From contig NZ_SJRW01000002.1 in NCBI RefSeq assembly GCF_004352825.1, positions 434,001 through 498,000 on the forward strand: a stretch of DNA of 64,000 nucleotides, in the 5' to 3' direction. This stretch comes from Luteimonas arsenica (GTDB lineage: Bacteria; Pseudomonadota; Gammaproteobacteria; Xanthomonadales; Xanthomonadaceae). Both the position numbers and the translations under genes were made by a program. The notes beneath the pieces were generated by a model that was not told the DNA's origin, did no database searches, and saw only the letters and a program-made list of their open reading frames with translations. Shown here one piece after another: positions 50,228 to 55,242 of this stretch (the stretch's first letter is position 1; each line of letters begins with the position of its first letter).

Positions 50228-51799
50228 ATGAGCATCCAGTCCGCCAGTTTCGATCCCGGCGCCAGCGCCACCGCCCAGTTCGAGCGAGCGGGGTACTGGA
50301 ACAACCCCGAGGCCCCGGGCCATGGCCACGACCACGGTCCCGACGCCTTGGGCAGCGAGGCCCCGGCGCCGCGCCCGATCGATGTCATCGGCGGCGGCGA
50401 TGCCCTGGATGTCGATGCCCCCGAGGGCGACGGCACGAAGATCGACGGCACCGCCGACAATGCCGGCGAGCGGACCCAGCGCAGCACCCCGGACGGCAAG
50501 CCGATCGTGGTCGATCCGCTGCACACCGGGAAGGGCGTCGAGGTCGCGCGCGAGCGCACCGTCGCCGACGGCCAGTACGTCAGCAGCGACCAGCTGGTGT
50601 TCACCACCGGCGCCGCCGACGACAGCATCGGGGTCAAGCAGCGCGACGACGGCACCCTGGACGTGAACGTCAACGGCGAGAGCTACGAGGTCCGTCTCGG
50701 CGAAGGCCAGGAGCTGACCATCCGCGCCGGCGCCGGCGACGACGTCATCGAGGTCGCGCCCAACGTCAGGGTCAACATCGTGGTCGAGGGCGGCGACGGC
50801 GACGACACCATCACCACCGGTGCCGGCGACGACCGCATCGACGGCGGCGCGGGCAACGACACCATCTTCTCCGGCGCCGGCCGCGACGACATCTTCGGCG
50901 GCAGCGGCAACGACGTGATCACCGGCGGCGACGGCGTCAACATCATCCACGGCGGCGACGGCAACGACGAGATCACCGCCGGCGCCGGCACCAACTTCAT
51001 CGAGGGCGGCGCGGGCGACGACGTGATCACCGGCGCCGGCAAGAGCGACATCCTCTCCGGCGGCACCGGCAACGACCGCATCGCCGTGGGCGAGGGCAAG
51101 AGCACCGTCTACGCCGGTGCCGGCGACGACACGATCGACAACGCCGGCGTCAACGCCACGGTCTACGCCGAGGTCGGCGACCTGGTGAACGCCGCCACCG
51201 GCGCGAAGCCGACCGTGGTCAACGTCGCCATCGACGCCAACGTCGGCCACACGATCAAGGTCGAGGGCTCGGACGCCTTCGTGCAGCGCATCCAGGCCGA
51301 GCTCGACTTCCTGCGCGCGTCCCCAGTGGGGCAGCAGATGCTGGCCGAGTTCGACAAGGCCGCCGACGTGAAGGGCAACGTGGTCACCATCAAGGAGCTG
51401 GCCAACGAGCAGAACGGCTACGCCCAGACCTTCAGCCGCGATGCCGACATCATCAACGGCCGCGCCGGTGCCGGCGGCAACGTCGACATCAGCTACAACC
51501 CCTCCTTCCACATGGACGCCTTCCCCGCGCCCGTCGTGGTGCTGTACCACGAGATGTCGCATGCCTACAACGGCGTGAACGGCACCTTCCAGCCGGGCAC
51601 CTACCGCGGCGAGGGCCCTGACTCCGGCCGCGTCCCCAATGCCGAGCGCCAGGCCGTGGGCCTGGAGACTTCCGCCCCCGCCTATGACTTCGATGGCGAC
51701 CCCAGCACCCCGCCGACCACCGCCAATCCCGACCACCTGACCGAGAACGGGATCCGCGAGGAACTGGGCCTGCCGGATCGCCCGAGCTACGCGCTCTGA
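50228..51799 (+). CDS. RTX-repeat protein with an M91 (NleD-like) zinc metallopeptidase domain
   Basis: The 523-residue protein has an N-terminal region of unknown fold (1-155), about eleven RTX calcium-binding nonapeptides (about 186-305, for example GGAGNDTIF, GGSGNDVIT, GGDGNDEIT, GGAGDDVIT) and a C-terminal domain. That domain holds HEMSHAYN with zinc ligands His441 and His445 and general base Glu442, and ENGIREELGLPDRPSY at 506-521 with the downstream acidic ligand. Zn, HExxHxxN and the EELGLP end match family M91, known from the injected effector NleD. A type I route through TolC is likely from the RTX repeats, although no ABC exporter is adjacent. There is no signal peptide. Substrate unknown. 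Confidence 0.85.
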   Translation: MSIQSASFDPGASATAQFERAGYWNNPEAPGHGHDHGPDALGSEAPAPRPIDVIGGGDALDVDAPEGDGTKIDGTADNAGERTQRSTPDGKPIVVDPLHTGKGVEVARERTVADGQYVSSDQLVFTTGAADDSIGVKQRDDGTLDVNVNGESYEVRLGEGQELTIRAGAGDDVIEVAPNVRVNIVVEGGDGDDTITTGAGDDRIDGGAGNDTIFSGAGRDDIFGGSGNDVITGGDGVNIIHGGDGNDEITAGAGTNFIEGGAGDDVITGAGKSDILSGGTGNDRIAVGEGKSTVYAGAGDDTIDNAGVNATVYAEVGDLVNAATGAKPTVVNVAIDANVGHTIKVEGSDAFVQRIQAELDFLRASPVGQQMLAEFDKAADVKGNVVTIKELANEQNGYAQTFSRDADIINGRAGAGGNVDISYNPSFHMDAFPAPVVVLYHEMSHAYNGVNGTFQPGTYRGEGPDSGRVPNAERQAVGLETSAPAYDFDGDPSTPPTTANPDHLTENGIREELGLPDRPSYAL

Positions 51800-51923: not shown

Positions 51924-52577
51924 ATGACCCGCAAGTCGATCCCCTTCGCCGGCGCCACGATGGTCGCCGCCTTGTCCGCGGCCCTGTCTTTGCCGCATCC
52001 TGCAACGGCCGCGGCGCAGCCCGGCGCCGCATCCACGCATGAGGAAGACCGGGTGGCACGAACCCGCATCGATGGTGAAGGCGCGACCCTGGAGGTGGCC
52101 TTCGATCCCGACGGCGAAAGGCTTGCCGTGCGCTATCGCATCAGCAACACGGGCCATGCGCCGCTGGCGGTGTTCGACCGCGGCGACCGCCACGCCGTGC
52201 TGACCGGCCGGCTCAAGGCCGGAGAGGTGCCCGCGCCGCATTTCGAACAGGCCGACGATGTCTCCCTGACCCTTTCACACGTCGCGCGCGCGCTGCCGCA
52301 GCCGACGCCCACGGTGCCGCCGGTGCCGCTGGCGACCCGGCTGGCGCCCGGCGCAAGCGTGGACGGCGCCTTCGAGTTCGACCTGTCGCTGGCCGTGGGG
52401 CTGGAGCGCGTGCGCTGGTGCCTGGGCGTGGCGCCGTTCGACGAGACCACGTTCGAGGCCTCGGAATCGGAGGGCGAGGTCGCGGTGTGGACAGCGTCGT
52501 TCGATGTCGCCGAGAGCCAGCAGCGGCTGTGCACGCCGTGGTTCGACGTTGCAGCCGGCGGGTTCGAAGCAGACTGA
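51924..52577 (+). CDS. Secreted protein of unknown function next to the RTX-M91 gene
   Basis: The 217-residue protein has a signal peptide (MTRKSIPFAGATMVAALSAA, then LSLPHPATAAA). A beta-rich region follows, with LAVRYRISNTGHAPLAVFDR near 69-88, HVARALPQPTPTVPPVPLA near 117-135 and VRWCLGVAPFDE near 165, plus a second Cys near 203. This looks like a small periplasmic immunoglobulin-like or chaperone-type domain; no family was recognised. It starts 125 bp after the RTX-M91 stop on the same strand and could be its inhibitor, chaperone or partner; this is inference. Confidence 0.7.
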   Translation: MTRKSIPFAGATMVAALSAALSLPHPATAAAQPGAASTHEEDRVARTRIDGEGATLEVAFDPDGERLAVRYRISNTGHAPLAVFDRGDRHAVLTGRLKAGEVPAPHFEQADDVSLTLSHVARALPQPTPTVPPVPLATRLAPGASVDGAFEFDLSLAVGLERVRWCLGVAPFDETTFEASESEGEVAVWTASFDVAESQQRLCTPWFDVAAGGFEAD

Positions 52578-52605
52578 GCGCACTCTCCGCTGGGAATGTT
52601 CGCTG

Positions 52606-52720
52606 CCCGCCGTGGAGGCAGGGGGGATGCCCAGCCGGATAGAGTCCGCGTCCAGCTCCCATATCCGGCCGCCGGCCATCCATGGCCGGCTCTGGACATC
52701 CCCCCTGCCTCCACGGCGGG
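52606..52720. repeat. Palindromic element A (24-bp perfect arms, shared core)
   Basis: The 24-nt arms 52606-52629 and 52697-52720 are perfect reverse complements (CCCGCCGTGGAGGCAGGGGG...). They enclose a 67-nt core. Within the core, 52645-52691 is 42/47 identical to the reverse complement of the core in element B, and GCCGGCCAT/ATGGCCGGC forms its own 9-bp stem. It lies 28 bp after the stop of the secreted-protein gene. No coding sequence was seen in 52578-53211. Confidence 0.93.
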
Positions 52721-52810
52721 CCCGACTGCCTCTGCGATCTGGAAGAAAAGAGCGTCGCGGGCGAAGAAGTCCCCGCGAGCCGGAAACAAACAACGGCTCC
52801 AGCGCGCCGT

Positions 52811-52859
52811 CTCTTGGCTTGTGGCTCTTGCTCTTGGCCTTTGCTCTTCGCTATTGCCC
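52811..52859. repeat. Short degenerate GCTCTT-rich tract
   Basis: A pyrimidine-rich stretch between the two palindromic elements repeats GCTCTT and close variants (CTTGGC, TTGCTC) about every six bases. It contains no ORF and is bracketed by elements A and B. Confidence 0.5.
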
Positions 52860-52886
52860 TTCGACCCGAAGCCGAGTAATGCCACA

Positions 52887-53002
52887 GCCCGTCCCGTACA
52901 CAGGGGGTGTGCGGACAGCCGGCCATGGATGGCCGGCGGCCGGCTTCCGTAGCTGGACGCGGAGGCGGCCGGGGGAGCACACCCCCTGTGTACGGGGCGG
53001 GC
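52887..53002. repeat. Palindromic element B (26-bp arms, inverted copy of the shared core)
   Basis: Arms 52887-52912 and 52977-53002 are complementary at 25 of 26 positions; the inner 20 bp are perfect. Their sequence (CCGTACACAGGGGGTGTGC) is unrelated to the arms of element A. The core 52917-52963 is element A's core in opposite orientation: 13 identical bases, a different 7-nt block, then 27 identical bases. Thus both elements share a core but differ in arms. Confidence 0.93.
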
Positions 53003-53128
53003 AGCGAGCTCTCCAACGAAGCCGCTCCGATCTGCAACCGAGCGGACAAGGCACCGACCTGGCAAGTACCTGCGCACTGCGCCACAGCCACGCATCATTG
53101 CCATCATGCGGAGTCGGGTGAACAACAA

Positions 53129-53152
53129 AAAAGCGGCCCGCAGGCCGCTTTT
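53129..53152 (-). terminator. Rho-independent terminator of hppA
   Basis: On the minus strand AAAAGCGGCC and GGCCGCTTTT pair in a perfect 10-bp stem with a 4-nt loop and run into a six-T tract. It lies 60 bp after the hppA stop. Confidence 0.85.
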
Positions 53153-53211
53153 CCATTTCTGTCCCCGGCACCCCGGCCGTGATCCACGGCAGGGGTGGGG
53201 AGTGGCCGTTC

Positions 53212-55242
<2,031 letters not shown>

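Follow-up and report, generated by a model that had tools for sequence, protein, structure and literature searches.

The closest described relative of the elements reported here is TwoAYGGAY (RF01731), a structured RNA that shares the Rfam clan CL00106 with CsrB. In the accessible text of its description it is presented as a probable RNA that is not cis-regulatory (Weinberg et al, 2010; PMC2864571), and Rfam gives it the type label Cis-reg. The accessible part of another study proposes, from motif matches, that TwoAYGGAY binds CsrA (PMC4333381), and within the literature available in excerpt its function is otherwise unassigned. For CsrA itself, the excerpted account in PMC7652899 describes the consensus and ANGGAN hexaloops, and reports that most hairpins obtained by SELEX have four or fewer contiguous pairs. 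The accessible open-licence literature yielded no account of the present repeats or of a MITE with CsrA sites, and the available parts of PMC9788540 and PMC4383904 do not describe such elements.

Here, we describe two mirrored palindromes, A and B, in the window, a 64,000-nucleotide stretch of the Luteimonas arsenica genome (G000:C2:434001-498000, where G000 is the window genome of 2.97 Mb). Their features are collected in Table 1. We consider it probable that A and B belong to an ISL3-ended MITE that carries two divergent RNAs of the CsrA clan. Each would be a complete copy of one structured-RNA element, a Lysobacteraceae relative of TwoAYGGAY, and together they would make up the body of the MITE, a small non-autonomous transposon. 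The fold and the dispersal of the elements are well supported; CsrA binding, transcription, mobilisation in trans and titration are steps that we infer.

Table 1. Positions in the window of elements A and B, their predicted hairpins and the adjoining features.
Feature	Position	Strand	Remarks
Element A, TwoAYGGAY-like three-way junction	52606-52720	-	arms 52606-52629 / 52697-52720 form the outer stem
Element B, TwoAYGGAY-like three-way junction	52887-53002	+	arms 52887-52912 / 52977-53002 form the outer stem
First hairpin of A (P2)	52671-52690	-	loop AUGGAU
Second hairpin of A (P3), approximate bounds	52634-52670	-	loop region AGCUGGACGC
First hairpin of B (P2)	52918-52937	+	loop AUGGAU
Second hairpin of B (P3), approximate bounds	52938-52970	+	loop region UAGCUGGACG
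Spacer, 5' end of A to 5' end of B	52721-52886	.	CTCTT-rich tract ahead of B, ~52809-52850
3' tail of B, reaching the presumed right element end	53003-53111	+	initial ~28 nt alike in own-genome B copies
Decayed right terminal repeat	53112-53127	.	12/16 vs the ISL3-type end AGTTGGGAGAAGAACC
Intrinsic terminator beside the H+-PPase gene	53129-53152	.	host sequence, outside the element

The first-pass annotation had described near-perfect arms of 24 and 26 bp around mirrored 47-nt cores, and a recount agrees with it. All 24 bases of the A arms and 25/26 of the B arms are complementary; when the 600-nt region was shuffled 20 times by mononucleotide, the best 24-nt arm had 15-17 matches. The cores (52645-52691 in A, 52917-52963 in B) lie in opposite orientation and are identical at 42/47 positions, with all differences inside a single 7-nt block between 13 and 27 identical bases. 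The GCTCTT-rich tract said to lie between the elements is there as well, with CTCTT at 52811, 52825, 52831 and 52844; the spacer also holds one weak terminator-like site on the minus strand (52811-52792). The arms of A and B had further been called unrelated and thought to be possibly acquired at the insertion site, and neither idea holds. When the two elements are aligned on the loop strand, only 10/2000 shuffles score as high as their 5' arms and 8/2000 as high as their 3' arms, and the copies can be aligned end to end. The arms are subfamily-specific: those of A and those of B are each conserved at unlinked places in the own genome (95.7-98.3% identity over the whole palindrome), and across species too.

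A search with the core and the arms, a check proposed in the same annotation, finds further copies in the host genome and in relatives. B occurs at five places in the own genome and A at two. The second A copy (C1:891897-892011) is 96% identical and the four further B copies are 96-98% identical; a second A-spacer-B pair with a similar spacer lies at C1:891.6-892.0k, and three B copies stand without A. The initial ~28 nt of the B 3' tail are alike across 5/5 own-genome B copies. In L. granuli and at loci of the same type (L089, L108, L136, L153), some elements are followed downstream by two or three tandem repeats of the 3' tail together with the end of the 3' arm. A more distant type, C, forms divergent pairs at C2:1183k and C1:281k and at C1:1549.9k.

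As single strands, A and B fold with z-scores of -8.9 to -11.6 on both strands, with 0/200 shuffles as good. On the strand whose first loop reads AUGGAU, each is predicted to fold into a three-way junction, closed by a long outer stem (P1), from which two hairpins project; both of their loops would present GGA, as AUGGAU in one and as CAGGAY or CUGGAC in the other. Such GGA-loop hairpins would have the shape of a CsrA/RsmA binding site. We aligned 61 A, B and C elements of 119 extracted using MAFFT without structural guidance, the elements having been collected by similarity to A and B and not by motif. RNAalifold returns the three-way junction from this alignment, and GGA is invariant in both hairpin loops in 61/61 elements. 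The structure covaries: 98.3% of cells pair, compared with 88.2% in column shuffles and at most 46.7% in slid structures, 21/38 pairs change on both sides in a compensatory manner, and 0/500 shuffles reach any of these measures.

The architecture extends to the 153 exact-core elements among the matches listed in a scan of public genomes with a 20-base core. There the first loop folds in 150/153 and a junction with at least six outer pairs in 132/153. The second loop, whose GGA was not part of the 20-base search key, contains GGA in 108/132 of these listed junctions, or 114 when GGA in the closing pairs is counted, and lacks it in 24/132. Where P1 is at least 20 bp long, 49/63 distinct second hairpins have GGA, compared with 167/1658 random windows. 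The remaining 18 junctions are mixed, with ~6 that are Thermomonas-like and have loops such as GUAA, and several from unrelated bacteria. Related elements of Thermomonas haemolytica (L074, L135, L150) have a second hairpin without GGA, again with loops such as GUAA; L074 carries an extra downstream hairpin with CUGGAUG and is possibly a many-site version.

How do these elements relate to TwoAYGGAY? A and B give no match to the Rfam model at E up to 1 and do not reach its 43-bit cut-off. The relation is seen in the own-genome C-type pair at C2:1183k, one side of which scores 51.9 bits and its divergent partner 35.9; the latter is homologous to B (76% over 84 nt) and forms a row in alignment A1. 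A core match in Pseudomonas shirazensis scores 42.8 bits, RF01731 is above its cut-off in 5/52 genomes of the genus, the own genome included, and other Rfam families match only below their gathering scores. At four P. shirazensis loci (L088, L092, L103, L138), the same two-GGA-loop core follows a GCTCTTGATCTTGATCT-like tract resembling the tract ahead of B; in several of these copies a GGTTACTT-type 3' part comes next, apparently another dispersed family. In A and B, the first loop AUGGAU fits A-Y-GGA-Y and the second, CUGGAC or CAGGAY, deviates, while C-type rows have AUGGAU in both loops. GGA in hairpin loops, by which CsrA-sequestering RNAs are recognised, is present in the predicted structure. 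The AUGGAU loop of A and B tops a very stable GC stem, unlike most of the CsrA SELEX hairpins in the accessible account. A CsrA gene is found in 50/52 genomes of the genus, with the own copy at C1:966596-966751.

The exact-core scan found at least 118 stretches. Among the matches listed, most are from Luteimonas, Thermomonas, Lysobacter and other Lysobacteraceae, with some from Pseudomonas and scattered others. With model R1, matches occur in 31/52 genomes of the genus, own included, and in none of the other 21; we take the genus to be Luteimonas in the broad GTDB sense. Scored matches number 17 in the own genome, where some are the reverse strand of a palindrome, 21 in G007 (probably L. colneyensis), 28 in G021 (probably L. 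padinae), 43 in G040, 61 in G051, 66 in G033 (probably Lysobacteraceae bacterium NML91-0213), and at least 70 each in G014 (probably L. granuli Gr-4) and G020. Beyond the genus the model becomes sparse, with matches in 24/299 genomes and 14/85 genera of the order when the best 12 candidates per genome are scored, and in 4/369 genomes of the class sample, own included. No match was found in phages or plasmids at blastn sensitivity, and an origin from either was set aside.

The copies are organised as divergent pairs. Among the matches listed, 82 distinct neighbours lie 100-600 nt apart; of these, 79 diverge, 2 stand in tandem and 1 is convergent. Across the order, the listed neighbours diverge in G343, G316, G186 and G162, and are tandem in G324 and G205.

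Are these pairs mobile? The first-pass annotation had suggested so, and mobility is supported by the recurrence in the own genome, by orthologous gaps free of the pair and by insertion-sequence ends on related copies. An outward match to GGGAGAAGAACC with at most two mismatches lies within 420 nt of 40/157 core elements among the matches listed; by eye, an A or T tract comes next in most of them, often with a GC hairpin behind. At three or fewer mismatches to this 12-mer, both sides are matched in 37/79 divergent pairs; 12/37 have the same A or T tract (four or more) on both sides and 25/37 do not, and several matches in these 25 unlike pairs fall inside palindromes. We also searched for the ISL3-type terminal 16-mer in the 38/79 divergent pairs that are flanked by 200 nt or more on each side. 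With up to three mismatches it is present on 25/76 outer sides (L. granuli and relatives) compared with 0/76 shuffled, and the match is complete (16/16) for the left end at L175 and for the right end at L144 and L146. Both ends occur in only 7/38 pairs, where the mean target-repeat match of 4.0/8 is unexceptional, being reached by 142/2000 permutations; in two other pairs the target repeats are exact over 8 bp, TTTATTCA in L231 and ATGAAAAA in L226. A full-length ISL3-family IS in G030 (L308) has the ends GGTTCATCTCCCAAGT / AGTTGGGAGAAGAACC and exact 8-bp repeats, and such ends were seen in 4/9 ISL3 loci examined (G030, G027, G025, G026).

ISL3 transposase matches are found in 25/52 genomes of the genus, 18 of them over the cut-off, and none was found in the window genome, L. 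granuli or G007. No ISL3 end within three mismatches was found in the divergent pairs examined from other genera or in the C-type pairs of the own genome. In G343, three divergent pairs of ~340 bp (L346-L348) contain the same RNA type between another terminal inverted repeat, GAATCTCGC...GCGAGATTC, so that the RNA pair is not bound to a single vehicle. A candidate ISL3 remnant in G033 was rejected as a separate repeat of ~259 bp (L338-L343), which is 95-100% identical among its copies, matches the ISL3 transposase model over its final ~28 positions and adjoins an A/B pair in 2/6 places.

The window copy itself has a right terminal repeat with 4/16 mismatches, no left terminal repeat within 4/16 mismatches and no visible 8-bp target duplication. 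It adjoins the H+-PPase gene and its terminator, with a 217-aa ORF on the other side. In a comparison of allelic sites, which the earlier annotation had put forward as a check, the gap between these two genes gave no BLAST match to the pair in 6/6 relatives that keep both genes adjacent (G007, G048, G040, G021, G037, G039), and in G048 it contains ~300 nt of other sequence. This count leaves out L189, which is the window, and L191 (G034) and L195 (G029), both with other neighbours. In L. granuli, a pair lies next to this end of the H+-PPase gene, and its right end, similar to that of the window copy, by eye reads AGTCTGGAGACGAACC followed by a similar terminator; the 217-aa ORF is absent from the 2.3 kb examined. 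The two pairs would thus either descend from one insertion or reflect more than one hit at the same site. Next to the 217-aa ORF, which has no Pfam match, the window contains an ORF (50228-51799) with RTX calcium-binding repeats and a C-terminal Peptidase_M91. In L. granuli, by eye, the stretch from ppa to the H+-PPase gene contains the A/B pair and leaves no space for these two ORFs.

Could the palindromes simply be subterminal structures of an ISL3 MITE that have no RNA role, their palindromy kept by template-switch correction in replication? The ISL3-type ends and target repeats agree with this explanation, and very long palindromes are prone to arm-to-arm correction. Correction of one arm by the other is strand-blind, however, and would not produce the 12-fold excess of G.U over A.C in the outer stem (156 vs 13 cells across 110 distinct elements, cells that are not independent events). 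Of the one-sided changes seen within genomes, those private to one or two copies comprise 57 G.U, 14 A.C and 43 other mismatches, and those that are shared comprise 41 G.U, 1 A.C and 10 others. Private transitions over the whole palindrome are balanced (81 vs 76), and together with the G.U excess this points to selection on the pairing of the GGA-loop strand, in individual copies too. Part of the wobble asymmetry may be mutational, since transitions in the 3' tail are skewed in the same direction (45 vs 13; 89 vs 75 in the upstream flank). Nor would arm correction keep GGA in two differently stemmed loops, and in G343 this architecture is found together with a different terminal repeat. We regard a MITE without an RNA role as unlikely, and favour the MITE that carries two divergent CsrA-clan RNAs.

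A strand-specific stem with G.T wobble would also suit transposition as single-stranded DNA. Under this explanation, the hairpins would serve a REP/RAYT or IS200/IS605-like process, with the GGA loops as transposase signals and not CsrA sites; the elements are indeed dispersed intergenic hairpins, and the first arm of B contains CGTC (52890-52893), a motif absent from that of A. However, Y1_Tnp (RAYT) gives no match in the window genome or in G014 and G020 with their at least 70 copies, which does not support the link to a RAYT-like transposase that the first-pass annotation had proposed to test. Other copy-rich genomes have few matches (three in G033, one each in G051 and G040), many copy-poor genomes have as many, and across the 33/52 genomes of the genus with Y1_Tnp matches we see by eye no relation to copy number, on which ground mobilisation by RAYT was set aside. 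GTAG tags are the stem-foot signals of REP/RAYT systems, and neither stem has GTAG at its foot. Some copies instead end in DDE-type (ISL3) inverted repeats, two of them with exact 8-bp target repeats, and the fold and loops match a family in the CsrB clan. Transposition as single-stranded DNA is thus quite improbable as the role of these hairpins.

The gene context, based on approximate home-made gene calls at 118 loci, covers 61 solo and 47 paired elements out of 153; 14 called inside genes and 31 that lay close to a locus end or lacked a gene on one side were excluded. Convergent gene gaps are favoured (29/61 solos, 22/47 paired) and divergent gaps shunned (2/61 and 1/47), which might suggest that the elements terminate transcription in both directions or protect mRNA ends where genes converge, in the manner of classical REP/BIME effects, but this is very improbable: neither stem has a T-run after it on the loop strand, a host terminator already adjoins the element, termination has no need of conserved GGA loops, and any tolerated insertion is expected to avoid promoters. 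In co-directional gaps, solos are about equally often sense or antisense to the upstream gene (14 vs 16), which does not favour use by read-through; a sense placement in 3' UTRs was set aside for this absence of strand bias.

What might the favoured ISL3-ended MITE with its two CsrA-clan RNAs do in the cell? The MITE is presumably mobilised in trans by the transposase of an ISL3-family IS, entering A/T tracts next to intrinsic terminators and duplicating 8 bp of the target, and the window copy would be an old insertion beside the H+-PPase terminator whose right end has decayed and whose left end is lost. The 5' ends of A and B face each other across the spacer, so that each would be read outwards. 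Transcription could occur in this direction or by read-through. Once transcribed, the hairpin pair of each element would bind one CsrA dimer, and the scattered copies together would then act as CsrA decoys or as local docking sites. The A/B pair may thus offer a mobile means of modulating a master regulator.

More tentatively, the pair could stand for a class of transposons whose cargo is a regulatory-RNA pair that mimics CsrA targets. Transposition bursts would raise the number of decoy loops from a handful to more than 100, resetting the global CsrA set-point, or would wire individual 3' regions to CsrA; we regard this as possible, with the balance of probability leaning against it. The occurrence of the same RNA pair on at least two kinds of terminal repeat, ISL3 in Luteimonas and GAATCTCGC in G343, suggests that the RNA module itself is selected. 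If this is true, selfish DNA would carry an RNA sponge for a global regulator. Relatives of TwoAYGGAY that occur as a high-copy, covarying, mobile pair in Lysobacteraceae also provide a natural experiment, as genomes of one genus range from 0 to at least 70 scored matches and a titration role can be tested by comparing their CsrA regulons.

Compared with known systems, the elements resemble REP/BIME sequences in being dispersed intergenic hairpins, paired in opposite orientation, with a preference for gene 3' ends. They differ in being much longer (115 bp) and forming a three-way junction, and from REP/RAYT systems in the lack of a RAYT in the window genome and the DDE-type ends in relatives. 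With TwoAYGGAY they share an outer stem and two hairpins with A-Y-GGA-Y loops on one strand, whereas A and B score below the cut-off, have CUGGAC or CAGGAY as second loop and a near-perfect palindrome of 24-26 bp as P1, and lie in divergent pairs within a dispersed repeat, an arrangement that the accessible literature on TwoAYGGAY does not mention. CsrB and other CsrA-sequestering RNAs of CL00106 likewise have GGA in hairpin loops and share the clan with TwoAYGGAY; unlike CsrB, an A or B element has two sites and not many, some genomes have dozens of scattered copies, and no sigma-70-like promoter was found at A/B (52500-53250, the A-B spacer included). Finally, the copies in L. granuli and relatives have terminal repeats like those of the 1309-bp ISL3-family IS of the genus and, as in ISL3 MITEs, exact 8-bp target repeats in two pairs and A/T-tract targets. 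The window copy keeps only a decayed right end, and the interior, in contrast to that of ISL3 MITEs, consists of two structured RNAs in place of a deleted transposase gene.
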